Virus record (IMG/VR): IMGVR_UViG_3300009285_000106
Coordinates: 1 to 47,672 of that record
Length of the DNA stretch: 47,672 nucleotides
Direction: 5' to 3' (one strand)
Origin: a virus
Made by a program: the position numbers and the translations under genes. Every line of letters begins with the position of its first letter. Position 1 is the stretch's first letter. Under the pieces are notes generated by a model. The model saw nothing but the letters and a program-made list of their open reading frames with translations, was not told the origin of the DNA and searched no databases. This document shows, piece after piece, positions 4,942 through 47,672 of the stretch.

Positions 4942-5480
4942 TCTACGCCTCCTGTCGCGTCCGCCGGGGTGAGGGCGGCACGGAGCACCCTCACCGGACA
5001 GGACAGTGTATGCTCAATCAGCCGCCAATCCGCGTGACTTGCTTGGCAGCACTCGCAGTAGTAAATATCGGGGTTTATACCCAATGTCCCACGCCACCCG
5101 ATACTATCCTGAATGGCTATCGCCGCCTTCTCAATACGAGTAAGCCGCTCCTTCTCCGCTGTCAGACGTACGGCATCAGCCATGAATGCATCAGCGGCTT
5201 TCCCTGCGAGTTCAGCGGCAGTAATTACGACTTTTCGTTCCATTGTAAGCCGCTCATTCTCCGCCCGCAGCGCGTCCCGCTCAGCGGCGGCAATATCGTA
5301 TGCCTCGCCAAGTGCCTTAATCCGAGCAGCACGGAGATCGCTCGTTGCCCGCTCCGGCGCAAGGTGGGCGGTAACACGAGACTCGAACTCATTAGTCAAC
5401 TCTTCCTCACCCCACTTGTCACAGAGTATCGCGGTATTGGCCAAACTATTTGCCAGCGCCCTATCGTTTCTCTCGTTCAT
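4938..5480 (-). CDS. Coiled-coil protein with zinc-like C-terminal motif, 180 aa
   Basis: Residues 40-120 form a long Ala/Glu/Arg-rich coiled coil (AAERDALRAENERL, then AVRLTAEKERL). The C-terminal part has CECC, then H and SCPVRVLRAAL, a possible zinc site. Overlaps at both ends are four bases. It could be an oligomerising accessory protein, but no role can be assigned. Confidence 0.65.
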   Translation of the reverse strand: MNERNDRALANSLANTAILCDKWGEEELTNEFESRVTAHLAPERATSDLRAARIKALGEAYDIAAAERDALRAENERLTMERKVVITAAELAGKAADAFMADAVRLTAEKERLTRIEKAAIAIQDSIGWRGTLGINPDIYYCECCQASHADWRLIEHTLSCPVRVLRAALTPADATGGVE

Positions 5481-5689
5481 GCCTTCCCTCCTGTGAGTTC
5501 TGCCAGCCGTTTCATTGCCGCCTCGTCCTTGCCGTACCGTAGCCTGAAGTCAGAGACAGGTAGAAATTCATGGCGTTGGCCGGGCCAACAGATTTCAATT
5601 CTGGTGGATACGACCCGTTGACGCTTACCTTGGACATATTGATGGTATTTAATGCGTGGCAGCGACAGGTCAAGCGGAGAGGCGGTCAT
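5477..5689 (-). CDS. Hypothetical protein, 70 aa
   Basis: The start overlaps the stop of the DNA methyltransferase by four bases. The residues are basic in the centre (KYHQYVQGKRQRVV), followed by ICWPGQRHEF and a helical end. No family recognised. Its position suggests it is translated with the methyltransferase. Confidence 0.65.
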   Translation of the reverse strand: MTASPLDLSLPRIKYHQYVQGKRQRVVSTRIEICWPGQRHEFLPVSDFRLRYGKDEAAMKRLAELTGGKA

Positions 5690-7842
5690 GGGGATACCTC
5701 GGTTGTGAAGTCAAGGCGGGTCTGCGCGAGTTCGGCATCAATGCGCTTCTGTGCGATTGTCACCGCTTCCGTGTCACTGTCAACGCCTATAAACCGGAAT
5801 CCCTCACGGATCGCCGCCTTGCCGGTGGAACCAGAGCCGCAGAACGGGTCGAGGATTAGGCCATCAGGCGGCGTCACAAGGCGGCAGAGGTAACGCATCA
5901 GGGCAGTTGGCTTGACAGTTGGGTGGGTATTGTAGTTATTTGCACGTTGTTGGTCTGGTTGCCCGCCGATTCCACTACCCATTGTTGGTCGCGCCCTGGC
6001 CTCGCGCCCCTCCAGCCCTTCGTCCCGGTCAGCCTTGCTGGCCTTCGCGCAGTATTTGAACCTACTCGCTGAGTCCGCTTCCCCATGAACCAAGTTGTGC
6101 TGCATGATGTCGAACGTGGCAACGTCGGCAGACCCATCTGATTTCCAGTGGCTTATTGTAATCATCGTGGTGTCTGTCGGCTCTTGGGTTTTCGCAATAT
6201 TCACAAGGCATCCGTTTGGGATGGGCTTTCCGGGCTGCTGCCCTCGCAAGGCATCGCTTCCGATACTCAGGATCGCTGTGGTAATTGATGTAAGCAATCT
6301 GTTTAATTCGTTCTCCGTTACGGTCGTAGAAAGTTCCATCACACCGTTTAACCGCAGTTCCCCGAGGCTGACCGCGATTACTGCATCGTTTAGAACAAAA
6401 ACGGCGGCTTGCCTTGACAGGCATGAACTCGATACCACAGAACTCGCAATTTCTTGGCTGCATGGGCCTTCTCCTTTCAAAAGATTCCATGCAGATAATA
6501 TAGACATCGCACGGTTAAAAAGCAATTCAATTTCATCCGGCGCACAACACTTGAAGAAGCGGGCGGCGGAACCGGAGTCACCATAGGTCATATCATCCAT
6601 AGGCGGCTTCGGATTATTGCCCCCGAAAGTATTCCCTCCGCACCGATGGCGCACGGCTACTCCCGACTTGACATTCGGCATCAGTCCCACCACTTCCTCA
6701 CTGCCGTCGTGAATCAGATTCGCGGGCCAACGCCCTCGTAAAGTTAAATTGTCTATTACTCCGCCATTAGCAACTGTTCCGCCGACCATAACATCTTGCC
6801 ATCCACCCCCGTGTGTTTCTCCACCTTCTGTCCCTATCCGGCAACCTTCTATATTCATTGCCCCCGTCCCATACTTCAGCACATTCGCCGCGACCGTTCC
6901 TTCCAGTGGCTTCCGGGCAACCACTATCGGCTCCCATGCGGGCTTGAGCGCTACATTCCACCCTCGGCGCGTTTGTGCTGTCCGTTCGAGGAGAAAAGCA
7001 TGAGGTTGTTTATGGAATTGTTCGAGGGATTGTGGTCTATATGATGGACAACTTCCGTCCGCGTTAGGAATCTGCCAAGGTATTGAGCCATCACCAACCG
7101 ATGTTCCATGATGTACCCATCCTTCCGCGCCATCGGCAAGTATTCCATGGGACATCTTACATATCTGACACCCTTGTAATTCCCGTGCTTGCGGAAATAA
7201 GTCACTCCCCCGATCCACGCTGGATTGTTCGGGCCAGATAGTTTTAGATTTGGACCACGTGGCCCGAAGTTCCTGTGACTCTTGTTCCGACACGAACGGC
7301 TGCAAAACTTGCCCGCATTCCGCGCAAGCGTAGACGGGCGTCTGTAAATAGGTTGCCCGCACAAATCGCATGTTGTATTTGGGATGCGGCTTTTCTCCTG
7401 TTGCAATGTCCGCCGTATCCGCATCTGTTCCAGGGATAGATTTAGTTTCTTCATGGCTGTAATATACCATATTACCACATGATGTACAAGCCATTTTATG
7501 CATTATCCACGCAACATCTTGACCTTTCGGGAACCCCTGAGAATATACCCACATGATTGTATCCCGTAGCTCCCAACCTGCGTCCTCGATAGCAACCATC
7601 AGCCGATGAAATGTACGCGTTCCGCCAAATGCCAACAGGTGCGCCCCCGGCTTCGCCACGCGCAGCGCCTCGCGCCAGAATGGGCTACCCGGTACGCCGT
7701 GGTCCCATGACTTACCCATGAATTTGATGCCATACGGCGGGTCCGTCACCACGGCGTCAATACTCCCGTCTGGGATGCCCTTCATGACCTCAAGGCAGTC
7801 GCCGCAGACAACCTTGTTGATATAGTCGCCCGGCCAGTCCAT
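5686..7842 (-). CDS. DNA methyltransferase, beta-class N4-cytosine/N6-adenine type
   Basis: The N-terminal part has the catalytic DPPY motif at residues 34-37 (VVTDPPYGIKF). The C-terminal part has HPTVKPTALMRYL and the SAM-binding DPFCGSG near residue 665. Catalytic motif before SAM motif defines the beta class. The core would be near 350 residues, but the frame is 718 long because two regions (roughly residues 125-295 and 435-600) are extra. These regions carry HNH genes in other frames while the methyltransferase frame stays open. The ATG at 7842 follows AGGGGG and overlaps the upstream stop (TGATG). Its likely role is protecting phage DNA from restriction. Whether the full protein is active is not known. 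Confidence 0.82.
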   Translation of the reverse strand: MDWPGDYINKVVCGDCLEVMKGIPDGSIDAVVTDPPYGIKFMGKSWDHGVPGSPFWREALRVAKPGAHLLAFGGTRTFHRLMVAIEDAGWELRDTIMWVYSQGFPKGQDVAWIMHKMACTSCGNMVYYSHEETKSIPGTDADTADIATGEKPHPKYNMRFVRATYLQTPVYACAECGQVLQPFVSEQESQELRATWSKSKTIWPEQSSVDRGSDLFPQARELQGCQICKMSHGILADGAEGWVHHGTSVGDGSIPWQIPNADGSCPSYRPQSLEQFHKQPHAFLLERTAQTRRGWNVALKPAWEPIVVARKPLEGTVAANVLKYGTGAMNIEGCRIGTEGGETHGGGWQDVMVGGTVANGGVIDNLTLRGRWPANLIHDGSEEVVGLMPNVKSGVAVRHRCGGNTFGGNNPKPPMDDMTYGDSGSAARFFKCCAPDEIELLFNRAMSILSAWNLLKGEGPCSQEIASSVVSSSCLSRQAAVFVLNDAVIAVSLGELRLNGVMELSTTVTENELNRLLTSITTAILSIGSDALRGQQPGKPIPNGCLVNIAKTQEPTDTTMITISHWKSDGSADVATFDIMQHNLVHGEADSASRFKYCAKASKADRDEGLEGREARARPTMGSGIGGQPDQQRANNYNTHPTVKPTALMRYLCRLVTPPDGLILDPFCGSGSTGKAAIREGFRFIGVDSDTEAVTIAQKRIDAELAQTRLDFTTEVSP
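6062..6463 (-). CDS. HNH endonuclease nested inside the methyltransferase gene
   Basis: The 133-residue protein starts at an ATG with a strong AAAGGAG site. It reads a Cys cluster (CEFCGIEF, then RRFCSKRCSNRG), a DPEYRKR helix and a C-terminal zinc-bound core CEYC..RADRHHDDYNKPLEIRWVC..CH, typical of short HNH nucleases. It lies wholly within the methyltransferase gene but in a different frame. Its stop falls where the methyltransferase sequence resumes with SASRFKYCAKASK, close to a similar SGSAARFFKC before the insertion. This fits a selfish insertion. Confidence 0.8.
   Translation of the reverse strand: MQPRNCEFCGIEFMPVKASRRFCSKRCSNRGQPRGTAVKRCDGTFYDRNGERIKQIAYINYHSDPEYRKRCLARAAARKAHPKRMPCEYCENPRADRHHDDYNKPLEIRWVCRRCHVRHHAAQLGSWGSGLSE
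6951..7454 (-). CDS. HNH endonuclease nested inside the methyltransferase gene (second copy type)
   Basis: The protein has a zinc part (CDLCGQPIYRRP, then KFCSRSCRNKS), a GPNNPAWIGG linker and a classic HNH core: GYIMEHRLVMAQYLGR, VVHHIDHNPSNNSINNLMLF. It is in a different frame from the methyltransferase and different in kind from the nested HNH at 6062. The start is uncertain: the ATG at 7454 was used, with a GTG at 7478 and an ATG at 7424 as alternatives, none with a clear ribosome site. Confidence 0.78.
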   Translation of the reverse strand: MKKLNLSLEQMRIRRTLQQEKSRIPNTTCDLCGQPIYRRPSTLARNAGKFCSRSCRNKSHRNFGPRGPNLKLSGPNNPAWIGGVTYFRKHGNYKGVRYVRCPMEYLPMARKDGYIMEHRLVMAQYLGRFLTRTEVVHHIDHNPSNNSINNLMLFSSNGQHKRAEGGM

Positions 7843-8471
7843 CACCATCCCCCTATCGCTTCGATTGCCGCAGCCGGGATGTCAAGGCGGGTCTGTACCG
7901 GCTGATGTGTGTTGCCCCACTGGTCCGACATCGCATCAGCCACACCCGGAAGAAACCGCGAGCGTTCTTTCCCTCTATACTGCGATGGGGGCATTCTGTG
8001 AATGCGGTGTTCTCGCCCCGATACAATGTTCGTCGGCACCAGCGGCGGCAGATTTGTCAGCCACAGACAGGTTGCTTTCGTCTCGCCATGCCCGAACATC
8101 CACGGCTGAATGATTTGATCCGGCTTGCGATAGATTTTCGACATGATTCTTACTGGGTTTTCCACCGCAATCTGTCTGATGGGCGCGTTTGCCAGTGCCA
8201 TAAAGAAATCAATCCCCGCCTGTTGCCGTCCGTCCGCCCGTTTCGCCGTAAACCATCGCGCCCCGCTGACGGCCAGGGGATCACATGGCGGATGCGCAAT
8301 CATCAGATCCCAACCATCTTCCAGTATGTCCAGTACGTCGCCCTGGATATGCGGCCCCGGTATCTCAGTTGGCAGCAGGTCGCACGACCATGCGTCATGT
8401 CCGCGCCGACGGAACGCTTCGCGAACGATACCGCTGAACTCGCAGGCCACAAGGACACGGAGCACGTCCAT
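7842..8471 (-). CDS. C5-cytosine methyltransferase-like protein, 209 aa
   Basis: The protein opens with a Rossmann strand VLRVLVACEFSG and RGHDAWSCDLLP, then has the PPC motif at 61-63, whose Cys is the nucleophile in C5-cytosine methyltransferases, and VENP at 103-106 in place of the usual ENV. It is shorter than restriction-type enzymes and lacks an obvious target-recognition region, as is usual for the phage family. The ATG at 8471 overlaps the upstream stop (TGATG); a longer upstream reading was rejected because it runs over other genes. With the next gene it forms a pair of DNA-modifying enzymes. Confidence 0.75.
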   Translation of the reverse strand: MDVLRVLVACEFSGIVREAFRRRGHDAWSCDLLPTEIPGPHIQGDVLDILEDGWDLMIAHPPCDPLAVSGARWFTAKRADGRQQAGIDFFMALANAPIRQIAVENPVRIMSKIYRKPDQIIQPWMFGHGETKATCLWLTNLPPLVPTNIVSGREHRIHRMPPSQYRGKERSRFLPGVADAMSDQWGNTHQPVQTRLDIPAAAIEAIGGW

Positions 8472-8563
8472 CAGAACCCCCCGATTCGTGCGATCACCGC
8501 AGCCGCCGCGAGTATCGCCAGCCCGGCGAGCACGTACGCGAGGGTGTACAGGCGGGAGGTCAT
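8471..8563 (-). CDS. Single-span membrane microprotein, 30 aa
   Basis: The ATG at 8563 overlaps the upstream stop (ATGA) and the TGA overlaps the next start (TGATG). The peptide is one hydrophobic helix (LAYVLAGLAILAAAAVIA) with an Arg at each side. It is fully coupled on both sides, which supports translation. Function unknown. Confidence 0.6.
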   Translation of the reverse strand: MTSRLYTLAYVLAGLAILAAAAVIARIGGF

Positions 8564-8748
8564 GACTGTGCCGCCGCATCATGGGTTGTGTGACATGAGG
8601 CGTGATCCTCGCGCCATTGGTCAGCCATAATTTCATATCGGAATGCGCGACCTCTCTCGTCTCTTGCGCCGCCAGGTGTGATATAATAGGCAGGCCCGTC
8701 GTAGTGATATTCTGCGCCGCATGCACATTTCAGGTTAACACTCACCAT
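8560..8748 (-). CDS. Small zinc-like protein, 62 aa
   Basis: The ATG at 8748 was chosen because GGAAAGGA lies just ahead and it follows the upstream stop closely. The N-terminus has CACGAEYHYDGP, and DHASCHTTH near the C-terminus could complete a metal site. Unknown family. Confidence 0.65.
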   Translation of the reverse strand: MVSVNLKCACGAEYHYDGPAYYITPGGARDERGRAFRYEIMADQWREDHASCHTTHDAAAQS

Positions 8749-9655: not shown

Positions 9656-9901
9656 TTACTTCTTCTTGGCCTCGGCGGGTTTGGCCGGCGCTGCGTCCAT
9701 GAACTCCATGCCGTATTGTGTCTCGGGTGTCATGCGAAACGGTTTGCCGACGGTGACGGGCACGAAATGCTCCTCGCTGTATTTCTTGGGATTCTTTCGG
9801 GCGCGGCGCTGAAACTCAACCTGGTCCTTCACGTCCGGTTCGCCGACGGCTTCCGTGAGCACCTTCCGGCCGTCAATGATCTTACATGTGAATACCTGCA
9901 T
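9656..9901 (-). CDS. Hypothetical protein, 81 aa
   Basis: The ATG at 9901 follows GGAGGATACC, better than the ATG four codons earlier. The protein is hydrophilic and ends in a Lys/Ala-rich tail. Its leader is the structured element at 9920-10019, so its translation may be controlled by that RNA. No family recognised. Confidence 0.65.
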   Translation of the reverse strand: MQVFTCKIIDGRKVLTEAVGEPDVKDQVEFQRRARKNPKKYSEEHFVPVTVGKPFRMTPETQYGMEFMDAAPAKPAEAKKK

Positions 9902-9919
9902 GGTATCCTCCAATTTGTA

Positions 9920-10019
9920 GGCGCGGGGCAGGGGCTTTAGTTTGCTTGGGCGATCCCCAATCCGGGACTATCTCCCTGACGAATACCGGTACTCGCTCTG
10001 CAAGTGCAGCACCCGCGCC
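9920..10019 (-). repeat. Structured intergenic element, copy B
   Basis: A perfect 8-base inverted repeat (GGCGCGGG at 9920-9927, CCCGCGCC at 10012-10019) encloses three small perfect hairpins: 9946-9960 (TTGGG/CCCAA), 9964-9976 (GGGA/TCCC) and 9998-10009 (CTGC/GCAG). On the minus strand the RNA would be a closed junction just ahead of the GGAGG of the gene starting at 9901. Its ends match two other elements in the window. Confidence 0.6.
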
Positions 10020-10033
10020 ATTGTTATTCTCCA

Positions 10034-10098
10034 CCCCGGCCCTTGCGGTCAGCCGTAGCCTCCTACGGACCGGGGCGGTCTGACCCTGCGTGAGCAGG
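10034..10098 (-). other. Hairpin-rich leader region downstream of the annealing-type gene
   Basis: Two hairpins fill the space before element B: CCTGC/GCAGG with a 4-base loop at 10085-10098, and a nested structure of CCCCGG/CCGGGG (10034-10039 and 10070-10075) around CCGTAG/CTACGG (10053-10068). No run of T follows, so these are not canonical terminators. Together with element B they make about 180 bases of non-coding structured sequence. Confidence 0.5.
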
Positions 10099-10099
10099 A

Positions 10100-11122
10100 T
10101 TATACTTTGTCCTTGCCGATGTTGCTCTGGTCGAACAGGTCAACCGCGTCCGGGCCTGCTATATCGCCGATTGAAGCCGGTTCGCCGTCTCTCGGTTGCG
10201 CCAGCATGAACTCGTTGAAGTCGTGATACAACGTGTCGTAGACGGCATCGCACGATTCCGGCGTGAGCGACTTGGTTGACTTCGTGGACTGGTCAGCTTT
10301 CACGATTTTGAGATACTTGGCAAGCATCTTGCCCGCCTCCACGACATCGCCCTGCACCATTTCGAGCAGCCAGCCGCGAATCTCAAGGCGCTTCTTGTCG
10401 TAGCCGTCATCCTGGACTTCGGGCGGCGCGGGTGGCTGATCCTGTTCGGCGGGTTCCCCATACCCGTACAGGGTGGGGTTGTCTTCCACGTCCACGGCGA
10501 ACACGTCCGAAGCGGATGTGGCCCCGCGCACCCCGGATACCATCGCCCGCTTCTGCGCCATTTTGCAGCAGGTGTTGTAGTAATCGGCGGGGTCTTCATA
10601 CTCGACACGGCCCATCTCCTGGTTATCGATGGCGGTATCGCCGTCCTTGAACTTCGCGCCGCACCCACCCTTTTTCTTGAAACACAGCCAGCCGCCGCCG
10701 TACTCCTTCTTGCCCTTGATGATAGTGGCCTGTCCACATTCCGGACATTTCTGTTCGGCCTTGCGGTAGCGGTACTTCGATTCCATCGTAGAACAGGTGC
10801 CGTAGGACTCACTGACAATCGTGCCGGTCGCCATGTTGCGGATGGTACACTTCGCGGTGTATTCCCGGTGGCCGTTGCCGAGGTCACGGAACTCGACTTC
10901 GTACTGGTCCGATAGCCGGAATGCCATTTTGAGCAGTTCCGCACCGGGCTGGTACAGAGAAGGTTTCGGGCAACCAGGGATAGTGCCGAAATGCACCTTA
11001 TCCTGCATGATCTGTTTCATGATGTCCCGGACGATAGTAACCTGGTGCTTCACTTCCATGACCGTCAGGGCTGTTGACTGTACCTGTTGCGGCTGGACCA
11101 CAACCGCCTGAGACTCATTCAT
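10100..11122 (-). CDS. Phage DNA-metabolism protein, possible annealing/recombination factor, 340 aa
   Basis: The ATG at 11122 has a perfect GGAGGAAACA spacing and was preferred to the ATG 12 bases upstream. The N-terminal region (VRDIMKQIMQDKVHFGTIPG, then GAELLKMAFRLSDQYEV) and the block NTCCKMAQKRAMVSGVRGATSASDVF match a phage family associated with recombination modules. An inserted zinc ribbon lies at CPECG and CFKKKGGCG. The C-terminal part is a helical tail. I infer single-strand annealing or a related role from family recall only. Confidence 0.6.
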   Translation of the reverse strand: MNESQAVVVQPQQVQSTALTVMEVKHQVTIVRDIMKQIMQDKVHFGTIPGCPKPSLYQPGAELLKMAFRLSDQYEVEFRDLGNGHREYTAKCTIRNMATGTIVSESYGTCSTMESKYRYRKAEQKCPECGQATIIKGKKEYGGGWLCFKKKGGCGAKFKDGDTAIDNQEMGRVEYEDPADYYNTCCKMAQKRAMVSGVRGATSASDVFAVDVEDNPTLYGYGEPAEQDQPPAPPEVQDDGYDKKRLEIRGWLLEMVQGDVVEAGKMLAKYLKIVKADQSTKSTKSLTPESCDAVYDTLYHDFNEFMLAQPRDGEPASIGDIAGPDAVDLFDQSNIGKDKV

Positions 11123-11158
11123 TGTTTCCTCCATCGTCAGACTGCGTGAGTTCCGAGA

Positions 11159-12547
11159 TCACTTCTCCCCCTTGTGCAGATATTCCCATTGCGCCAGCGG
11201 GATGAGCGGCGCGTTGTTCTGTGCAGCGATGGCACGAGCGATTGGTATTTCGTCTACACCGAGCCAGTTGTACTTGAATGTCGCAATCGTTCCATGCTTT
11301 CCGAGCCAGTCTATCCTATCGGCGTACTCCACGAACCAGCACTTTTCCCCGCCGATGAGCACGGAGAGGTCGGAGAGAGTAATATCGCGGCACTGGTCGA
11401 TATAGTGATAATGCGGCACCATCCGCAATTTATCGAGGCAGAGCCGACAGTCATTAAACTTGTCATATACCCACCAGCCCTCTTTCCACCATTCCGGCGG
11501 CTCTGACTTGGCAGGCTTCGGCTCGTTCCGCGACCTCCATTTAGGTTGGTCGGTAAACATCCAACACTCATCACAAGGAGATTCCCGGCTGTCTAAACAT
11601 TCGTATGCACACGTTTTGCAGCGCCTTTGTGGATTCAGCTCATCCAGATGCTCCCCCGTCGTTATCCCCGCGATCTCGACCAGCTTGGAGGCCATAGCGA
11701 CGGCAGCAGCATGAGCGTCGGGAAAAGATGTACGGACGTTTCGCCAGTCGCGGAATAGTGAGCAGCATTGGCTCATTCCTTGGCATCCAAGCGGGCATTC
11801 ATTTGGGAACGCCGGGGCATTCTTACGGGCTTTGGTACAAAGGGCACATTCAGTGTTTTTGATTATCGCCTTCATCTCCCCGCACGTCTCCACCTTGCAC
11901 ATCGGCAGCCAGCGCTCGTAGTAGCTCTTGCGCGCCGCCTCGGCCCAATCATGGACGGGCTTCGGCGGATTGTGCTCACGGATGGCGGCGACGATGGTAA
12001 CATCATCCCATCCAGAATATTTACCTTTATATCCCTCTCCTATAAGGTCACAATCCCATATACCAACATATTTCCCTATGTATACGGGATGATAAAGTAT
12101 ACCGCCGTCTTTTCTTGGCAGAAACACATCGCCTTCCACCGCCGTCACTCGCACCACTTCGGCCCCTTCCTTATCAAAGCATTCCTTCTTCAGCCTCTTC
12201 CAATCCACTGGGCCGGTGAACTCATAGGAGTGCTCGACTGCCTCATTGTCCCACCAAGTCACCTGGACAAGCGGACCGTCAGGAACGAGGAGGAGGATTT
12301 CGCGGGGGCCGCCTGCTGTATACTGATACCCCGGTCTCCCCTCCGTCATAAATGCACATTCTACAATGGGCTGAACACTCCAGTCTCCTGCATAGGTAAT
12401 TCGATATTCGCCTGCATATTCAAAGTGATGATGAGCAGGGAAATTAATAATATCGGCTGGTCCCACTATTCCCTCAAACCGTTCGCCCTTCTTGTGAGCA
12501 CTCTTCTCCTTCGCCTCGAAGTTCTTGCACTCATCCTTGCAGTCCAT
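11159..12547 (-). CDS. Cys-rich hypothetical protein, 462 aa
   Basis: Start at 12547 follows AAGGAG. The N-terminus has CKDEC. Two stretches carry dense Cys: residues about 218-270 (CKVETC, CALC, CPLGCQGMSQCC) and 310-335 (CKTCAYEC, CDEC). Aspartates and tryptophans are frequent. The block GPREILLLVPDGPLV resembles one in the 256-residue protein at 1484-2254. Multiple zinc sites are likely. The gene is led by structured element A. Function unknown. Confidence 0.65.
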   Translation of the reverse strand: MDCKDECKNFEAKEKSAHKKGERFEGIVGPADIINFPAHHHFEYAGEYRITYAGDWSVQPIVECAFMTEGRPGYQYTAGGPREILLLVPDGPLVQVTWWDNEAVEHSYEFTGPVDWKRLKKECFDKEGAEVVRVTAVEGDVFLPRKDGGILYHPVYIGKYVGIWDCDLIGEGYKGKYSGWDDVTIVAAIREHNPPKPVHDWAEAARKSYYERWLPMCKVETCGEMKAIIKNTECALCTKARKNAPAFPNECPLGCQGMSQCCSLFRDWRNVRTSFPDAHAAAVAMASKLVEIAGITTGEHLDELNPQRRCKTCAYECLDSRESPCDECWMFTDQPKWRSRNEPKPAKSEPPEWWKEGWWVYDKFNDCRLCLDKLRMVPHYHYIDQCRDITLSDLSVLIGGEKCWFVEYADRIDWLGKHGTIATFKYNWLGVDEIPIARAIAAQNNAPLIPLAQWEYLHKGEK

Positions 12548-12570
12548 TGTCTTATCTCCTTATTTGTGTA

Positions 12571-12664
12571 GGCGCGGGGCTATCGTCCCGGACGATTCCG
12601 TCGTCACGGCGATACCCATTTTCAGGGGAGCAGATTTCGTTGCATTCGAGACGTGCCCCGCGCC
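12571..12664 (-). repeat. Structured intergenic element, copy A
   Basis: A perfect 10-base inverted repeat (GGCGCGGGGC at 12571-12580, GCCCCGCGCC at 12655-12664) encloses hairpins at 12582-12596 (ATCGTC/GACGAT), 12598-12609 (CCGT/ACGG) and 12615-12627 (CCC/GGG). It starts a few bases after the upstream stop and ends about 12 bases before the AAGGAG of the next gene. It has the same flanks (AATGGCGCGGG and CCCCGCGC then TA, ACAAA) as copies B and C. Confidence 0.62.
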
Positions 12665-12668
12665 ATTG

Positions 12669-12866
12669 TTATTCGCTGTCCCTGTAGTCGTCCTCATCCA
12701 AGTCCCCGCCGCACGTCGGGCATCTGCCTGTTACCAGGTCCGGCTCCGTCCACTCACCGCAGGCCGCGCAGAATAGTTCACCGGGGCCGTAATCCTCATT
12801 GTCCGGGAACTCGCTATCCATGTGCAGCGGGGGCCACTCGTCAGACAGGATCGCGTCGGGGGGCAT
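12669..12866 (-). CDS. Zinc-ribbon protein, 65 aa
   Basis: ATG at 12866 follows GAGGAGGACTGGA. After an acidic region the chain reads CAACGEWTEP and CPTCGGDLDEDDY, two Cys pairs 15-20 residues apart: a zinc ribbon. It overlaps the upstream gene by 26 bases. Unknown role. Confidence 0.7.
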   Translation of the reverse strand: MPPDAILSDEWPPLHMDSEFPDNEDYGPGELFCAACGEWTEPDLVTGRCPTCGGDLDEDDYRDSE

Positions 12867-13179
12867 TCCAGTCCTCCTCATCATTCGCCCGGCCGTGTTC
12901 CTTGACAGCCCTGTCGATTTCGGTTCGCAGATATTCGGCAGTCTGCCGGGAACAGAGCGCGTCGGCGCGGGCAATAGCCGTCTTCCGCCACGGGAATGAT
13001 GCCTTTTTCGTCAGTGAATATCCGCTCTCGAATTCCGAGACTTCAAAAAACGTATTATCATGCCATGAGCGGTGAACGAACGCTCGGATTTCAGGATGTG
13101 ACGGGAGTACACACGGTTCGGCACCGTCAACAAGACTTGGCCCGCGATCCGTCATGACACAGTAATCATGATATTTCAT
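12841..13179 (-). CDS. Hypothetical protein, 112 aa
   Basis: ATG at 13179 has a strong GAGGAGGG site. The chain begins KYHDYCVMTDRGPSL and ends with a helical, charged region (RTEIDRAVKEHGRANDEED). No family recognised. Confidence 0.65.
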   Translation of the reverse strand: MKYHDYCVMTDRGPSLVDGAEPCVLPSHPEIRAFVHRSWHDNTFFEVSEFESGYSLTKKASFPWRKTAIARADALCSRQTAEYLRTEIDRAVKEHGRANDEEDWNAPRRDPV

Positions 13180-13181
13180 GG

Positions 13182-13367
13182 TCAGCCCTCCTCGATTAAC
13201 CGCCGTAGCATACCGGCGGCCAGCAGTAGCATGATTACCCCGGCCCAAGTCGTTCCCGGTCCCGGCCATACATCAGGCGCAAGGCAGATGGTGAACAGGC
13301 GGGCGAATGCGATAAATCCGCCGGCGAACAGGAGCGCGAAGGCGAGGCAGGGGTGGAGCCATTTCAT
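13182..13367 (-). CDS. Two-span membrane protein, 61 aa
   Basis: Two hydrophobic helices are visible: residues about 6-28 (CLAFALLFAGGFIAFARLF) and 40-55 (WAGVIMLLLAAGML). The charged ends suggest both termini are cytoplasmic. It overlaps the previous coiled-coil gene by four bases. Possibly an envelope or superinfection factor, but this is only a guess. Confidence 0.65.
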   Translation of the reverse strand: MKWLHPCLAFALLFAGGFIAFARLFTICLAPDVWPGPGTTWAGVIMLLLAAGMLRRLIEEG

Positions 13368-13516
13368 TCCGGCTTCTCCTCGGCAAGACTGAAACGGGCC
13401 ATATCTGCTATCACAGACTGTAATAGGCCAACATCAGTAGTAAGCCGCTCAACTTCTTTCCTCAGCCACTCATTCTCGGCCAATAGTTCAGGGATCGTGC
13501 GCGCAGTCTTAGGCAT
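13364..13516 (-). CDS. Small coiled-coil protein, 50 aa
   Basis: ATG at 13516 follows GGAGG by eight bases. The sequence TIPELLAENEWLRKEVERLTTDVGLLQSV is a leucine-zipper-like coiled coil. It overlaps the genes on both sides. Likely an oligomerising partner; no known family. Confidence 0.65.
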   Translation of the reverse strand: MPKTARTIPELLAENEWLRKEVERLTTDVGLLQSVIADMARFSLAEEKPE

Positions 13517-13787
13517 TGATGGGGCCTCCGAGGTGTGCGAGCGCGTTTTCCAGCCGTGCCTGTTCACGGTCGAGTTCATGCTCGAACCAGGCGAGGAAAG
13601 ATTCGGCATAGACGTTCAAGTCAAACGAATACTTCCATCCAGCACCGACAATGGTAGCGGTCACGCCGATAGCGCGGTCATCCTGTACCGATTCGGCGGC
13701 TTTCTCAAGCACCTGCCTGTTATCCTCGACTTCGCCAAGCCGGGTGGCAATCTCAATGATGCGCGGGAGTTCCGAGCGGGTAATCAT
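13509..13787 (-). CDS. Hypothetical protein, 92 aa
   Basis: The protein starts with an amphipathic helix (RSELPRIIEIATRLGEVEDN), has a central hydrophobic beta-like part (GVTATIVGAGWKYSFDL) and closes with a long helix. It overlaps the upstream helix-turn-helix gene by four bases. Unknown. Confidence 0.65.
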   Translation of the reverse strand: MITRSELPRIIEIATRLGEVEDNRQVLEKAAESVQDDRAIGVTATIVGAGWKYSFDLNVYAESFLAWFEHELDREQARLENALAHLGGPINA

Positions 13788-13984
13788 AGGTTCCTCCGGT
13801 GTGTGACGCGATGTGCCTCGACATATCGCTCGACTTCCTGCTGGTAATACCGCACCGGGGAATTAGGAGCATCCCCGAGCTTGATATACGGTATCCCTTT
13901 TTTCTGCTGCCGATACTTCCGCAGCGTTTTCGCGGACACACCCAATATGGCCGCGACTTCCCTTGCCGTAAGCATCTTGTCCAT
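13784..13984 (-). CDS. Helix-turn-helix protein, excisionase/MerR-like, 66 aa
   Basis: The whole chain is a winged helix-turn-helix of the HTH_17 type: LTAREVAAILGVSAKTLRKYR is the recognition part, GIPYIKLGDAPNSPVRYYQQE is the wing and final helix. Such proteins act as DNA-binding regulators or recombination directionality factors. No integrase is visible in the window, so a regulator of the early unit is more likely than an excisionase. It is the first gene of the leftmost unit and sits beside a non-coding control region. Confidence 0.8.
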   Translation of the reverse strand: MDKMLTAREVAAILGVSAKTLRKYRQQKKGIPYIKLGDAPNSPVRYYQQEVERYVEAHRVTHRRNL

Positions 13985-14018
13985 TCAAGCCTCGCTGTTT
14001 CGTGGGGTATTACTGGAC

Positions 14019-14047
14019 AAAATAGGGGCATACGGGGGATAATGCAA
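14019..14047 (-). promoter_or_regulatory. Possible promoter for the helix-turn-helix unit
   Basis: On the minus strand TTGCAT (14047-14042) and TATTTT (14024-14019) are 17 bases apart, partly matching a sigma70 pattern, and lie 35 bases upstream of the helix-turn-helix gene. The -35 match is poor. Confidence 0.3.
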
Positions 14048-14130
14048 GCAATTATTTGCGAACATTGCGAAATAGTCTGTGAGGGTGATTATTCCACTGG
14101 TGGACTATGCGACGTGTTATGCTTCATACA

Positions 14131-14160
14131 TTAACGTCAAAGCAGGTTGTGACTTATAAT
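14131..14160 (+). promoter_or_regulatory. Plus-strand sigma70-like promoter signal
   Basis: TTAACG (14131-14136), an 18-base gap and a consensus TATAAT (14155-14160) on the plus strand, with TG ahead of the -10. A transcript would run antisense into the metallophosphoesterase gene. It is the only sign of opposite transcription. Confidence 0.35.
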
Positions 14161-14178
14161 GAGCCATTTATGAGCCCC

Positions 14179-14204
14179 AAAAAAAGCCACCCTTTCGAGG
14201 CGGC
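14179..14204 (-). terminator. Rho-independent terminator of the late unit
   Basis: On the minus strand GCCGCCT (14204-14198) pairs with GGGTGGC (14192-14186) over a CGAAA loop, followed at once by seven T residues (14185-14179). This is a textbook terminator about 160 bases after the metallophosphoesterase stop. Confidence 0.85.
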
Positions 14205-14239
14205 CATTGCAACCATAGACAGTTTGGCGACAAGTCAGT

Positions 14240-14258
14240 CGGTGACAGTTTGTCACCG
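14240..14258. promoter_or_regulatory. Inverted repeat, operator or stem-loop
   Basis: CGGTGACA (14240-14247) and TGTCACCG (14251-14258) are perfect complements around three bases. Symmetry suits a dimeric DNA-binding protein; the short loop also allows an RNA hairpin. No T run follows. Confidence 0.45.
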
Positions 14259-14366
14259 GTTGGTTGCTATTCCCATCAAATTCGATGGGTTATCCGGGGT
14301 TGCTGGATAAGTCAGTTATTGAAAACCACGAGCCGCTTCTGATCTTCGGGGTAGAGTTTCAATGTG

Positions 14367-15173
14367 CTATATATCAGCCCGCAATTCGTACCCCGAAGTT
14401 TTGCCCGGTTCGATTACAATAATCGGGCTACCTATCTCGGTAGGTGGGTATCCGGCCCGTTCTGAATAGGTACTTTCCTGCGTGTCCGTAAAGGTTTTTA
14501 GGTAAGTCCCACAAAGAACAAGGAGTTGCGGCTTCGATACCAATTTGCCCGCTTGCAGGCCGAGGCGCGGCATCCGGTCCGCCTGCTTCTTATGGACATG
14601 TCCGAACATATAAATATCAGCATCCCATTTCCCCATATCGCGCTCGAATGACGTGATGCTCCCCCCGCGTGTACGTGAGCCGCCGCCCCAGCCGTGGTGA
14701 ATCCGAATGACCAGCCGCACACATTTCTTGGGGTTGTTTTCAGCGAACAACGTCAGCCCGAGCAGGCAGGAATACCCGTGATACGGTACGCCGAGTTCAG
14801 CGCATAGTCGTTTCGTCGGGTGGGTTCCGCACTTCCGAGAGATGGAATCTTCATGATTACCGGTTCCGAGGCCGATGATGCGACTCTTATACGGCTCCAA
14901 GATGCGGCGCATTTCGCCTATCTGTTCATCAATAATTTCGTCGCCAGTAGTGGCGTCAATGGATTTCTGGTATCGCTTAATATCAGTGGTAATTATCGAA
15001 TCAGTGAGGTCGCCGCCGCCGAGAAAATAGGTATATTCGTCATCATCTTTCGCAAGGTATTTCTTGAATCCGGCTATGTCGCTTGCAATGTTTCCTGCGT
15101 GTACATCAAACAAGGGTTTGATCTTGACAACACCGCCATACTTGTACGGTATCCTAACCGTCCGAGTAACCAT
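14367..15173 (-). CDS. Calcineurin-like metallophosphoesterase, 268 aa
   Basis: All metal-binding motifs are present in order: DVH at 23-25, GGGD at 52-55, GNHE at 105-108, HHG at 159-161 and GHVH at 191-194. The family hydrolyses phosphodiesters or phosphomonoesters with two metal ions; phage members include protein phosphatases and nucleases, so the substrate is open. Length is normal. It is the last gene before the late terminator, three bases after the DUF4406-like gene. Confidence 0.88.
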   Translation of the reverse strand: MVTRTVRIPYKYGGVVKIKPLFDVHAGNIASDIAGFKKYLAKDDDEYTYFLGGGDLTDSIITTDIKRYQKSIDATTGDEIIDEQIGEMRRILEPYKSRIIGLGTGNHEDSISRKCGTHPTKRLCAELGVPYHGYSCLLGLTLFAENNPKKCVRLVIRIHHGWGGGSRTRGGSITSFERDMGKWDADIYMFGHVHKKQADRMPRLGLQAGKLVSKPQLLVLCGTYLKTFTDTQESTYSERAGYPPTEIGSPIIVIEPGKTSGYELRADI

Positions 15174-15176
15174 CCT

Positions 15177-15500
15177 TTACCCCTCATCAAAGAGGACGTT
15201 CACGCCGCGCCGTCGTGCCGCTGCGAGTTCCTTTACTGCACCCTCAGACTTCTCCCATCCGCGCATCATGACAATGCAGTCCACGTGCGGGCGCAGGCGG
15301 CGGATGAACGCGATGTCGCCTCGGAGCCATACGTCGTCGGGACACTTCCCGTCGAACAGGGCGGTATTCTGGTGCGCGCATATTACTGCAAATCCCTTAC
15401 GCCAGTACCGGATTGCCACCCGTCGCGCCTTCCAAATGTTCCAGATGACGCCGAAGATTGTCCGGGCGCGATATTTTCCAGAGATGTATGCAACCCTCAT
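15177..15500 (-). CDS. DUF4406-like protein (deoxyribosyltransferase fold), 107 aa
   Basis: The chain opens with a strand and ISGKYRARTIFGVIWN, then WRKGFAVICAHQNTALFDG, LRGDIAFIRRLRPHVDCIVMMRGWEKSEGA, with a C-terminal GVNVLF strand. This is the pattern of DUF4406, related to nucleoside 2-deoxyribosyltransferases. The YISGKYR and MMRGWEKSEGA segments correspond to nucleotide-site elements in the family. The ATG at 15500 overlaps the upstream microprotein stop. A role in nucleotide handling is inferred. Confidence 0.75.
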   Translation of the reverse strand: MRVAYISGKYRARTIFGVIWNIWKARRVAIRYWRKGFAVICAHQNTALFDGKCPDDVWLRGDIAFIRRLRPHVDCIVMMRGWEKSEGAVKELAAARRRGVNVLFDEG

Positions 15501-15616
15501 GGTGTTATCCCGCCGAGTGACATTACTGCAAACCAAGCAAGTGCCAACACACCCATACAGAAACAAGCATATAAAATTAACCCAATGAACATAGCAGTAT
15601 CGGAACGAGATTTCAT
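15497..15616 (-). CDS. Single-span membrane microprotein, 39 aa
   Basis: ATG at 15616 follows GGAG by six bases, just after the upstream stop. The stop overlaps the next start (ATGA). MKSRSDTA leads into a helix of about 25 hydrophobic residues (MFIGLILYACFCMGVLALAW and beyond). Basic N-terminus suggests it stays inside. Unknown function. Confidence 0.62.
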   Translation of the reverse strand: MKSRSDTAMFIGLILYACFCMGVLALAWFAVMSLGGITP

Positions 15617-15617
15617 A

Positions 15618-16082
15618 TCAAACTCCATCCTGGAGCGTGATAATCTCCTTTGAGATTTCGACTATCGCCCCAAGGAGTTCGCGGATCGCCGGTGCAGTAT
15701 CAAGCCGCCGCGACTCGTCAATCTTCTTCATGGCCTGCCCGAGCGCGTGACCTCGGAAGTGCCGGTTAATCCAGCACCCGATTTGCCCCTCGAATGGGCG
15801 GGCATCACCGTGGCGGATGTCACCCTTGCCGGTCGCCGCCTGTTCATAGGCCGCGTCCAGCACGGCCCGCAGCCGTGCATACCGGGTATCGAATGTGACC
15901 TCCACCTTGAACTCTAAAGGATCGCTTACAGGTTTGTCCGGGGCCAGCATGTCCTCGACTATCCCATCACCTTCCGGCTCGACAAGCGATTCAAGCGGGG
16001 CGGAAGTGAAGCCGCCGATTGCCGTACTACTCGGTGCGGAAGCCAAGGAACCCAAATGTTCGCCGTACCATTCACCTGTCAT
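15618..16082 (-). CDS. Conserved phage protein, 154 aa
   Basis: The N-terminal 60 residues are low-complexity. The C-terminal half has ATGKGDIRHGDARPFEGQIGC, GHALGQAMKKIDESRRL and AIRELLGAIVEISKEI, matching a phage family of unknown role often near nucleotide-metabolism genes. Start at 16082 follows AAAGGAG. Its leader is structured element C. Confidence 0.68.
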   Translation of the reverse strand: MTGEWYGEHLGSLASAPSSTAIGGFTSAPLESLVEPEGDGIVEDMLAPDKPVSDPLEFKVEVTFDTRYARLRAVLDAAYEQAATGKGDIRHGDARPFEGQIGCWINRHFRGHALGQAMKKIDESRRLDTAPAIRELLGAIVEISKEIITLQDGV

Positions 16083-16101
16083 GGTATTCTCCTTTTGTTA
16101 T

Positions 16102-16222
16102 AGCGCGGGGCAGGGCCGCTATCCTGCAATCTGCCATTCACCCCTATCGAGTGACCTTGCGTAGCCAGCAGATACCGGTACGACTATATACCGTGCTGTT
16201 TTCATTTTCAGCCACCCGCGCC
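16102..16222 (-). repeat. Structured intergenic element, copy C
   Basis: GCGCGGG (16103-16109) and CCCGCGC (16215-16221) close a region with hairpins GCAGG/CCTGC (16110-16127), TCAC/GTGA (16138-16154), CGGTA/TACCG (16176-16193) and GCTG/CAGC (16195-16212). It begins just after the upstream stop and ends before AAAGGAG of the next gene. Flanks match copies A and B. Confidence 0.58.
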
Positions 16223-16224
16223 AT

Positions 16225-41949: not shown

Positions 41950-42861
41950 TCAGCCACCAGGCGACGCGAAGATACCCTTGGGATCGGCGTAGCCGAAGGT
42001 ATAGCGCCCGACACCCTTGAAGCAGAAGTTATCGGTGTCGAACTCCTTGTCCTTCGCCAGGCCGTCTTTCCGGCGCTCCTGATAAATCATGCCGTTCGCA
42101 CAGTCGGTGATGAGGAACCACGCATCGGAGTCAGTCAGTTGGTTGTTGACGTGATACCCGCCGGGGATGATACCAATGGAGCGAATCGCATTGATGTCAT
42201 TGTCGGCACTGTCAACACGGCCCGGAGTCTTGAGCAACCGTTCGGCGTTGAACCGGTCGTTGCCGTGGATGATGAGGCGCACCGGCTTGATGCCGATAGG
42301 CAGCCCACGGTCGTCAGTCCAAGCGTCGATGTCGATGCACGCCTGTTCGAGCGCGTACTCATTGAGATCGGACGCGGTGGTCAGTTCGTTCTTGTACGTT
42401 CCGCCGCCACGATTGATGTGGAGGAGCGAACAGAGTTCGAGGCCGTCAGCGCCGAGATAGGACGTACTGAACGCCCGGTTGAGCACGTTAGCGCCGACCT
42501 GTTCCTTCGTCTTCCGAAGTGAACGGGCAAGCGATTTCGCGCCCTCGGTTGCAATCTTGATGCCCTGCCCATCGTCAACGGCTTCCTCGGTGACTTTGAT
42601 ACCGAGGCCATACTTGACGTTGGTGAGGCGAGAGACGAATCCCTGCGCCATTGTGTCGTAAGACACCGCTTCGCCTTCAGCAATGACAGGCGCAAGGCCG
42701 GTGCCGCTCATGGAGACATATTCCTCGTATGCCAACGTGGAAGTCTCCTTGGTGAAAATCTTGTCCCACTGGACCTCGTGGTCTTTGTAGGACAGGCCAA
42801 AATACAGTTTGACCCCAGGCCAAACAGCTTTGGCAAATGCAGAGGTTGTGATGAGACCCAT
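41950..42861 (-). CDS. Major capsid protein, HK97-like, 303 aa
   Basis: The chain has WDKIFTKETSTLAYEEYVSM, EGEAVSYDTMAQGFVSRLTN near residue 65, VKYGLGIKVTEEAVDDGQG and a C-terminal NFCFKGVGRYTFGYADPKGI. These match the HK97-fold/Mu gpT-like capsid family, and the size is normal. It is preceded by scaffold and probable decoration genes and followed by a hairpin. It forms the capsid shell. Confidence 0.85.
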   Translation of the reverse strand: MGLITTSAFAKAVWPGVKLYFGLSYKDHEVQWDKIFTKETSTLAYEEYVSMSGTGLAPVIAEGEAVSYDTMAQGFVSRLTNVKYGLGIKVTEEAVDDGQGIKIATEGAKSLARSLRKTKEQVGANVLNRAFSTSYLGADGLELCSLLHINRGGGTYKNELTTASDLNEYALEQACIDIDAWTDDRGLPIGIKPVRLIIHGNDRFNAERLLKTPGRVDSADNDINAIRSIGIIPGGYHVNNQLTDSDAWFLITDCANGMIYQERRKDGLAKDKEFDTDNFCFKGVGRYTFGYADPKGIFASPGG

Positions 42862-45440: not shown

Positions 45441-45706
45441 TGCGGTTCCTCCCCGTCGTCTTCATCTTCACCCGTTTCCACCTGCCCGTCACGGAGATCG
45501 AGATTCAATACAGCCAATGCGCCTTGCATCCAGCCGCATACCTCCGCGTATTCCATCGCCGTTCTATCCGGCGACTCCTTCCTCAGACATGCCCCGTCCG
45601 ATAGTGCCTCCCGTTTCTCCTGTATTTCCTGCTCCACCCGGCGCTTCCATTCCAATGTTACCGGGTTCCCCAACCACGCTTCTACTTCCCTCCAGTGTAT
45701 CTTCAC
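45437..45706 (-). CDS. Small protein overprinted on the portal 3' end, 89 aa
   Basis: GTG at 45706 follows a strong AGGAGGAG with eight bases between, inside the portal gene. The protein (EVEAWLGNPVTLEWKRRV, then YAEVCGWMQGALAVLNLDL) is a helical phage protein that commonly follows portals. The first 143 bases overlap the portal reading in another frame. The stop overlaps the GroES-like start. Role unknown. Confidence 0.78.
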   Translation of the reverse strand: MKIHWREVEAWLGNPVTLEWKRRVEQEIQEKREALSDGACLRKESPDRTAMEYAEVCGWMQGALAVLNLDLRDGQVETGEDEDDGEEPQ

Positions 45707-47672
45707 CTTCCGCTCCTCCTCCCATCATCATTTCGCCCATCTTATTCAAGCGGTCTATGAGTTTGTTCATCTCGGTCGCCCGCTGGTCAAGCAGCATCTT
45801 CAATGATTCAATCGTAGTTGCGGCATCCTCCGATTCCGCCTTCGCCAGCAATAGGGTCGCGTTGGCGTTCAGTTGCCCGATTTCAGCCTTGATACGTTCC
45901 ATTTCCGCCATTGTTTTCAGGCGTTCCACCTGGAACCGGGTTTCCTGAAGCGTCTGCCGCGCTTCCTTCACCGCCAGTTCACCCTTCTTGAGTTCGATTT
46001 CCGGGTCGGTCATGGCCGCAAGTTCCTCTTTCGGCCGCATGAACGACTTGGCGTCGGGAATGCTCATAGCTTCGAGCAGATTCATCTTGATCTTGCGGCT
46101 GTCAAATTCCGGGTCGTTGACGAAATCCATGAGTGTTTGCGCCCGGAGCATCGTTACCGCGTCGCTCATATTATTCGGGTCGCATTCCGGGATAACATCG
46201 CAATCGCGGTCTTCGTAATCGGCGCGGGCAACGGAGTTCGGCTCGTCAACTACCGTGAAATATTCCTCATCCGTCAGGTACAGCCGGTTAAGCCGGTGGA
46301 GTTTCTTGAATTCCTCGCGCAACGCTCTGTAGATGCGCTTGTAGACGCCAGAATAGACTTTCAGTGATTGTTCGATCAATGTGACGGTCGTCGTCGCCGG
46401 CGTGTTCGCGGGCGGCATCTCGCCAGCCAGAAGGTCGCTGTTTGAAATCATCTTCGAGGTGCTGATCATTAATTCGAGCAACTTGAATAAGACATTCGAC
46501 GGTTGCGGCGTCTCGCGGGGTACGATGCTTTCGCGCAACGTTGCCCCGGTAACGCCGACCTGCTTCCACTCGCCGGGCATAAAAGAAATCACCGCGCCGA
46601 GCGCGTTTTTGCCAAGTTGCACCGCCTTACTGATGAACCCGCCACCTGTATTCTGATTCGTCCCGGCATCAAGAAGCTGGTTTATAGTGGCGTTGACAGT
46701 CTCGTTCATGTGGCCCATGAGAAGGCCGAATCCGAGGCCGTAAATGGAACCATCAAGGGAGGGTAGAAATTGCTTTACCGTCCAGTGATTCACCGCTTTG
46801 ATTCGGGTAATGTGGCCCTCAGCGTTTCTTGTAATGCCGTCAGGGTCGAACCGTGCGGTAATCCGCACAACCGTCGAGGTATAGACATGAACTGTTACAA
46901 TCCACGGCTCTTCATAGCCGTCTTCATCGAGGTCATACCAGCGGTGCTGCTCATAGAATAAGTGCGGTGCAGCCGAATCCTGCGCGTTTATCGCGCCGTC
47001 GTCCCCGGAAAGGCTCGTATCGGCATCGTCAAGTTCTTCGACTTCGACGCCGGTGGAGTTATCATACTCGAATTTTCGGAATGTGCCCGTGCGGATGTAT
47101 GATTCAATCTCATTCGGATATAACTCGAATGGTTGTGTGATTCGCGGTGCTCGTTCAATGGATTTTACGCGGTAATTGACAATACAGTCTTCAGCATTAA
47201 CGTACTCGCTGACATTAACGCCCTTCGCGTAGTCCCGGTACGTTTTCTTGAATGTCGTGCCAACTACCGGGAGAATGAGCAATTCTGCGTCGAGTTCATC
47301 TTCCCATCCAACCATCTGTTCGGTCAACTGGTAACTCATGTGCAGGCCGATTCGATTTGCGCGATCCGCCTTTTTGCCTTCCGGGTCGGGACCGATGACG
47401 CGGCCCTTGACAATACGCCCGTTGCTCATGATTGCCGGATATGCGCGGGCGTTGAACTGTATCGCCGCTTGGGTAATGAGTGGGTACTTGATGTTGGCAC
47501 TATTCGGCCACGGAAAATCTTTCGCCTCTTTCGGCATACGCGCCAGTTTCAGGGCGTCGGCATAGTCTTCCTTCCACTGACTGCGTGAGTCGTCATCAAT
47601 CCTGGCTTCTTCAACGACGAGCGTGCCGAGTGTCTTCAGCGTGTCATCATCAAGCCCTTCGGCGGCGTTCTC
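45564..47672 (-). CDS. Portal protein, P22-like, N-terminus beyond window
   Basis: The frame is open to the right edge, so the start is beyond the window; 702 residues are visible. The usual portal patterns are here: FPWPNSANIKYPLITQAAIQ near the start, then VGTTFKKTYRDYAKGVNVSEYV, EQHRWYDLDEDGYEEPWIVT, NQLLDAGTNQNTGGGFISKAV, and a long helix-rich C-terminal stem with Glu/Ala. The last 45 residues are Gly-rich. P22 portal is of similar length. The portal forms the dodecameric gate for DNA. Confidence 0.85.
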   Translation of the reverse strand, partial: ENAAEGLDDDTLKTLGTLVVEEARIDDDSRSQWKEDYADALKLARMPKEAKDFPWPNSANIKYPLITQAAIQFNARAYPAIMSNGRIVKGRVIGPDPEGKKADRANRIGLHMSYQLTEQMVGWEDELDAELLILPVVGTTFKKTYRDYAKGVNVSEYVNAEDCIVNYRVKSIERAPRITQPFELYPNEIESYIRTGTFRKFEYDNSTGVEVEELDDADTSLSGDDGAINAQDSAAPHLFYEQHRWYDLDEDGYEEPWIVTVHVYTSTVVRITARFDPDGITRNAEGHITRIKAVNHWTVKQFLPSLDGSIYGLGFGLLMGHMNETVNATINQLLDAGTNQNTGGGFISKAVQLGKNALGAVISFMPGEWKQVGVTGATLRESIVPRETPQPSNVLFKLLELMISTSKMISNSDLLAGEMPPANTPATTTVTLIEQSLKVYSGVYKRIYRALREEFKKLHRLNRLYLTDEEYFTVVDEPNSVARADYEDRDCDVIPECDPNNMSDAVTMLRAQTLMDFVNDPEFDSRKIKMNLLEAMSIPDAKSFMRPKEELAAMTDPEIELKKGELAVKEARQTLQETRFQVERLKTMAEMERIKAEIGQLNANATLLLAKAESEDAATTIESLKMLLDQRATEMNKLIDRLNKMGEMMMGGGAEGEDTLEGSRSVVGEPGNIGMEAPGGAGNTGETGGTIGRGMSEEGVAG

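Follow-up and report, generated by a model that had tools for sequence, protein, structure and literature searches.

Intergenic phage elements with common inverted ends and variable interiors at gene borders

Three elements ahead of ribosome sites

Three intergenic elements of a tailed phage share their ends, differ inside and stand ahead of genes, which raises the question of what fixed ends around a changing interior might serve. The window analysed is the complete 47,672-base IMG/VR virus record of this phage and includes genes for a portal protein (45564-47537), a major head protein (41950-42861) and methyltransferases (5686-8726). As the genes around the elements are carried on the minus strand, the elements, termed E1, E2 and E3, are read on that strand. 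A preliminary description had placed three copies at 9920-10019, 12571-12664 and 16102-16222, and all three were indeed present there on the minus strand. E1 (9920..10019, minus, 100 nt) extends from GGCGCGGG to CCCGCGCC with an interior of 84 nt and precedes an ORF of 85 aa (9656-9913). E2 (12571..12664, minus, 94 nt) is closed by a 10-bp helix, GGCGCGGGGC/GCCCCGCGCC, and precedes an ORF of 462 aa (11159-12547), while E3 (16101..16223, minus) is closed by a 9-bp helix with one G-U pair, UGGCGCGGG/CCCGCGCUA, and precedes an ORF of 154 aa (15618-16082).

The ends common to E1-E3 read AATGGCGCGGG ... CCCCGCGC(C)TA. A search of the window with the pattern AATGGCGCGGGN{74,104}CCCCGCGC gave three matches, compared with none in dinucleotide shuffles. 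The likeness between E1 and E2 extends further than previously described: the 5' end of E1 with its extended flank (GAGAATAACAATGGCGCGGG; 10012..10031, minus) agrees at 19/20 bases with that of E2 (GCGAATAACAATGGCGCGGG; 12657..12676, minus), which includes the TAA of the upstream ORF, and the right ends agree at 13/13 bases (CCCCGCGCCTACA). The 3' end of E1, CCCCGCGCCTACAA (9915..9928, minus), is followed by GGAGG and a start codon, and the 3' end of E2, CCCCGCGCCTACA (12567..12579, minus), by AAGGAG and ATG. In all three cases the Shine-Dalgarno sequence lies 8-9 nt past the 3' end of the element. The elements had also been described as lying between an upstream stop and a ribosome site, which is accurate for E2 and E3, both starting a few bases past the stop codon. 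E1, however, does not adjoin the upstream stop (10100), since a block of 80 nt (10020-10099) stands between them.

Relatives in other phages and homology breakpoints

Homologues exist in other phages, with genuine relatives in three IMG/VR contigs: L131 (59.4 kb) and L133 (10.2 kb) each contain a full copy, and L173 (33.5 kb) contains a full copy (L173a) and a truncated one (L173b). Viral contigs were scanned with several degenerate versions of the ends, which yielded many chance matches inside reading frames. A match was accepted as genuine if it was intergenic, was preceded by a stop or by a different intergenic element, and was followed by a ribosome site and a start codon. Because the selection was pattern-based, copies with altered arms would mostly have been missed. 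The known total amounts to six full copies, representing five different interiors, and one truncated copy, with at most three copies per genome. L131, L133 and L173 are mutually related, sharing stretches at 84-99% identity, whereas the window has almost no genes in common with them. The sole window protein matching the contig of the L131 element is an HNH endonuclease (1002-1487, minus), at 40% over 94 residues.

Further searches added little to this set. Scanning for the right end plus a ribosome site returned L131 and the truncated L173b as genuine. The matches listed for ATGGCGCGGGN{65,95}CCCCGCGC in viral contigs were almost all coding or chance; two of the candidates, L044 and L069, looked promising at first but read as coding. 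Bacterial and archaeal genome contigs gave five matches, all within long reading frames. No additional genuine copy emerged from viral contigs when the inner two helix pairs were left free, no further full-end copy was found in the window or the related contigs, and a DNA search of the phage collection returned nothing significant. In contigs encoding relatives of the 344-aa protein or of the portal, which are too distant for intergenic comparison, no copy was apparent by the stem pattern. An inverted repeat in L121 (7124-7242) was discarded, as it overlaps with the end of a gene and with a hairpin resembling a terminator.

Comparison of the related contigs showed where homology starts and stops. 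Between L133 and L173, the element is identical at 115/115 bases, as is the start of the next gene, which later diverges. The 8-10 nt that precede the first G of GGCGCGGG are unalignable, and farther left the two sequences become alignable again; there, beyond the gap, they have another structured element in common. L131 and L173b agree at every base from the right arm CCCGCGCC across the ribosome site and on into the gene, which encodes a putative secreted protein, but their interiors differ; what is left of the left part of L173b is a remnant joined to a truncated gene. Homology therefore breaks once at the left end and once at the right arm.

Fixed ends, a replaceable interior, the position at gene borders and the location of the breakpoints are consistent with a boundary module that is used, or at least repeatedly hit, by recombination. 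We thus tentatively propose, at a probability of roughly 45%, that the ends define these elements as modules, the interior being free to change, and that the modules mark the 5' boundary where phage cassettes or the interior recombine. The left family end, (GAATAAC)AAT-GGCGCGGG, and the right one, CCCGCGCC-TAYAA, are inverted repeats around the variable interior, and the module would border, on the 5' side, one gene or a small group of genes having its own ribosome site. It could then be the point where gene cassettes, or the interior alone, are swapped by recombination, and the ends may be retained because the recombination process or a sequence-reading protein uses them. Once transcribed, the ends would pair as a GC-rich helix between two reading frames. 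We infer this function from few copies. Recurrence before unrelated genes in otherwise unrelated phages, together with breakpoints at the arms in two comparisons, argues for the boundary module; against it stands the fact that the homologues all belong to a single set of related phages. A scan of about 40 window proteins recognised no recombinase, transposase or integrase, and both breakpoint comparisons might stem from ordinary mosaicism and coincidence. A bolder version, which we regard as quite unlikely, is that virulent phages possess a cassette-boundary system not yet described, in which two short inverted ends would be read in trans, fold as single strands and allow single genes, or the interior between the ends, to be swapped between unrelated phages without an integron integrase. 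Little has been described of what marks the joints of mosaic phage genomes, and a family with fixed ends, a replaceable interior and breakpoints exactly at the ends would offer a concrete handle on them.

Closing helix and interiors

The closing inverted repeat had been described as perfect in each copy. A helix is found in all three elements (8 bp in E1, 10 bp in E2, 9 bp with one G-U pair in E3), and inverted repeats of 8-10 bp occupy both ends of every full copy. In a context of 100 nt, the element and 120 nt, the predicted pair probabilities of the closing helix were 0.97-1.0 for E1-E3, and the helix of L131 was likewise predicted at a probability near 1. A GC-rich helix formed by the paired ends should therefore form in RNA according to these folding models, and it is mainly the arms that account for the folding significance of whole elements. 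These predictions are consistent with a generic RNA spacer or processing element, in which the end helix would insulate the genes of a polycistronic phage mRNA by blocking coupling or decay, or by offering a cut site to a host RNase, and the interior would be a loop. Every copy has a stop on one side and an A-rich ribosome-site leader on the other and always has the sense orientation, i.e., that of the downstream gene, and E3 retains its helix through the G-U pair plus an added U-A pair. However, the helix of L133 reached a predicted probability of only about 0.4 in context. A structural helix should moreover vary with compensation, yet a search of viral contigs that left the two middle pairs unspecified revealed no compensation and no additional genuine copy, recovering the same two copies only. 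Among the few copies, found by searches that partly required its sequence, the closing helix keeps that sequence instead of covarying. An intrinsic terminator is an unlikely form of such a spacer, as the helix is followed by UACAAA or UAUAACAAA and not by the U-run that accompanies the GC hairpin of a terminator. Taken with its supporting evidence, the spacer is possible but doubtful; if it proved right, the elements would be an ordinary yet useful addition to what is known of phage mRNA organisation.

It seems to be the sequence of the ends that is conserved, since only GGCGCGGG/CCCGCGCC copies emerged when 1.87 Mb was searched, outside long ORFs, for the layout of AAT, an 8-bp helix of any sequence, TAYA and a ribosome site, with many of the loci searched having been chosen by that sequence. 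The interiors behaved differently. Each element had been credited with three or four inner hairpins, but these did not exceed chance: when the arms were removed and the folding energy was compared with 500 dinucleotide shuffles each, the interiors alone scored z = -0.61 (E1), -0.77 (E2) and -0.67 (E3). The L133 interior also resembled shuffles (z -0.68), that of L131 being the exception (z -2.51, p 0.024). The related suggestion of a conserved topology with changed sequence is likewise contradicted, as the interiors fold like shuffles, differ in the number and arrangement of hairpins and permit no reliable alignment. Likeness between the interiors of different copies was no greater than between shuffles, save for weak signals uncorrected for multiplicity and for the orthologous pair L133/L173a. 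What the interiors have in common is a length of roughly 78-106 nt. A small upstream ORF starting from the shared ATGGCGCGG was considered and dismissed: it occurs with differing length and residues in E1-E3, L131 and L133, and is absent in L173a.

These results bear on the initial proposal of a leader RNA, riboswitch-like or protein-responsive, with a conserved architecture. The position of the elements before the ribosome site and the closing helix agree with such a leader, as does a short hairpin (5 bp, loop of 7-8 nt) that immediately adjoins the 3' arm in three of the five copies (E3, L131 and L133). This hairpin, noticed afterwards, has a combined chance probability of about 0.0005 post hoc and hints at a constraint inside the element at the RNA level; E1 and E2 lack it. 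A leader RNA would nevertheless be expected to have a conserved interior fold, whereas the interiors have shuffle-like energies and no common sequence, and Rfam returned no family above the gathering threshold. No relationship links the downstream genes of the five different situations, and in silico deletion of the element hardly altered the accessibility of the Shine-Dalgarno sequence (E1, 0.41 to 0.40; E2, 0.92 to 0.88; E3, 0.88 to 0.95), so that occlusion of the ribosome site by the element was rejected for E1-E3. Owing to these two observations, the idea of a leader that regulates through the ribosome site gained no positive support. A regulator that hides this site is unlikely by these predictions, and we regard a leader RNA in general as very unlikely.

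The hairpin at the 3' arm also recalls the T-arm of a tRNA. If the elements were tRNA relics or mimics, the closing helix would correspond to an acceptor stem and the adjacent hairpin to a T-arm by its 3' strand. L131 contains GUAGG-UUCAAUU-CCUAC beside the 3' arm, a perfect T-arm look-alike, in addition to a loop UUGCUAA, and a 5-bp hairpin occupies the same place in L133 and E3. Because of the look-alike hairpin, L131 weakly matched the tRNA-Sec model (21.1 bits vs a gathering score of 47). E1, E3 and L133 matched no tRNA model, E1 and E2 have no such hairpin, and the elements possess neither CCA nor a consistent 7-nt anticodon loop. ARAGORN found no tRNA at default stringency, and a cloverleaf with a 7-nt anticodon loop was recognised neither by this program nor by the tRNA models; tRNA and tmRNA readings were both rejected after default and relaxed searches, and no copy besides L131 speaks for a tRNA. 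Matches of L131 to tRNA-Asn genes in the phage collection covered about 26 nt at E about 3. A tRNA origin is thus highly improbable. A match in L177, a phage of 35% GC, from the scan for the right end plus a ribosome site was taken as chance, being a degenerate tRNA-like sequence beside a tRNA cluster (2300-2420, minus); it has a CUUCUAA loop, a T-arm and a CCCGCGCCUAUAA end, and was not called by ARAGORN.

Described elements and neighbouring structured regions

Among described features, the ESAS (extended start-associated sequences) of cluster K mycobacteriophages come closest; they are imperfect 17-bp inverted repeats with a 4-13 bp spacer that are tied to the SAS motif (PMC3203893). ESAS stand shortly before the ribosome sites of numerous unrelated genes and are oriented to the gene, and their function is also unproved (PMC3203893; PMC12699233, a later survey). 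Both families are phage-specific inverted repeats before a ribosome site, with a variable spacer and the same orientation to the gene. In contrast to ESAS, the elements have perfect repeats of 8-10 bp around 78-106 nt and no adjoining SAS motif, so that they fall outside the ESAS definition in spacing and sequence. By analogy, the ends might be inverted binding sites for a phage protein, which would read them as DNA or RNA and control the next gene, with the interior serving as a spacer. The conservation of the ends as sequence and of the interior as length only is consistent with this idea, as is the location before the start sites of diverse genes, like that of ESAS (PMC3203893). Yet the spacing is far longer than the 4-13 bp of ESAS, copies lie within apparent operons at no more than three per genome, and no known protein is a candidate for binding. 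We therefore consider binding sites of this type unlikely.

The preliminary description had named a MITE-like mobile unit as its main alternative. This suggestion lies nearer to the boundary module proposed here, but defining features of MITEs are missing as well. Like MITEs, the elements are short, non-coding and dispersed, with terminal inverted repeats (8-10 bp in all full copies); unlike them, they share only the ends, keep a fixed orientation to genes and have no parental transposase. A shared interior was seen in the orthologous pair L133/L173a only. The flanks, compared by eye for a target-site duplication, show a loose AAT ... TAYAA resemblance in which the repeat differs among copies, and no autonomous parent with a transposase and the same ends was found among about 40 window proteins or in the window and related contigs.

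The attC sites of integrons have the core sites RYYYAAC / GTTRRRY. They resemble the elements in being intergenic, with conserved ends, a variable folded interior and exchangeable single-gene cassettes. Such core sites are not at the ends of the elements, however, which border the cassette on its 5' side, and the scan of window proteins recognised no integron integrase. The boundary sequences of mosaic phages offer another parallel, as short conserved sequences at gene borders where the homology of relatives starts or stops. Classical ones are single stretches, whereas here two inverted ends enclose a replaceable interior. Each definition tested (MITE, attC, riboswitch, tRNA and terminator) lacks at least one feature in the elements, which are therefore judged to be a variant among intergenic elements that repeats delimit at the borders of phage genes. 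The small copy number is the chief source of uncertainty.

Other structured regions were observed in the neighbourhood of the elements. The block directly upstream of E1 (10020..10099, minus, 80 nt) is a GC-rich double hairpin (z -4.8) outside the shared family. Its arrangement with E1 resembles that of a second intergenic hairpin family lying directly 5' of the element in L133 and L173, with no sequence similarity by eye. This second family is present in L131, L133 (5414-5519, plus) and L173, with short copies in contig G001, and gave no Rfam match. It consists of three consecutive hairpins, ACGCCCGACGC-TTGA-GCGTTGGGATCGCC ... GGGGAATGCCGA, the first of which displays compensatory changes (CCGACGC/GCGTTGG, TCACCAT/ATGGTGG and CCGCCTC/GGGGTGG). 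Elsewhere in the window, a 335-nt gap (14032-14366) with several hairpins, one of them with a T-run (GCCGCCTCGAAAGGGTGGCTTTTTTT, minus strand), is probably a terminator and regulatory region. In L133, a low-complexity repeat (GGCTATGGCGATGGCAATGGC...) with reading frames spans 5203-5523, with a conserved gene on one side and the structured elements on the other, and a variant form of it occurs in G001.
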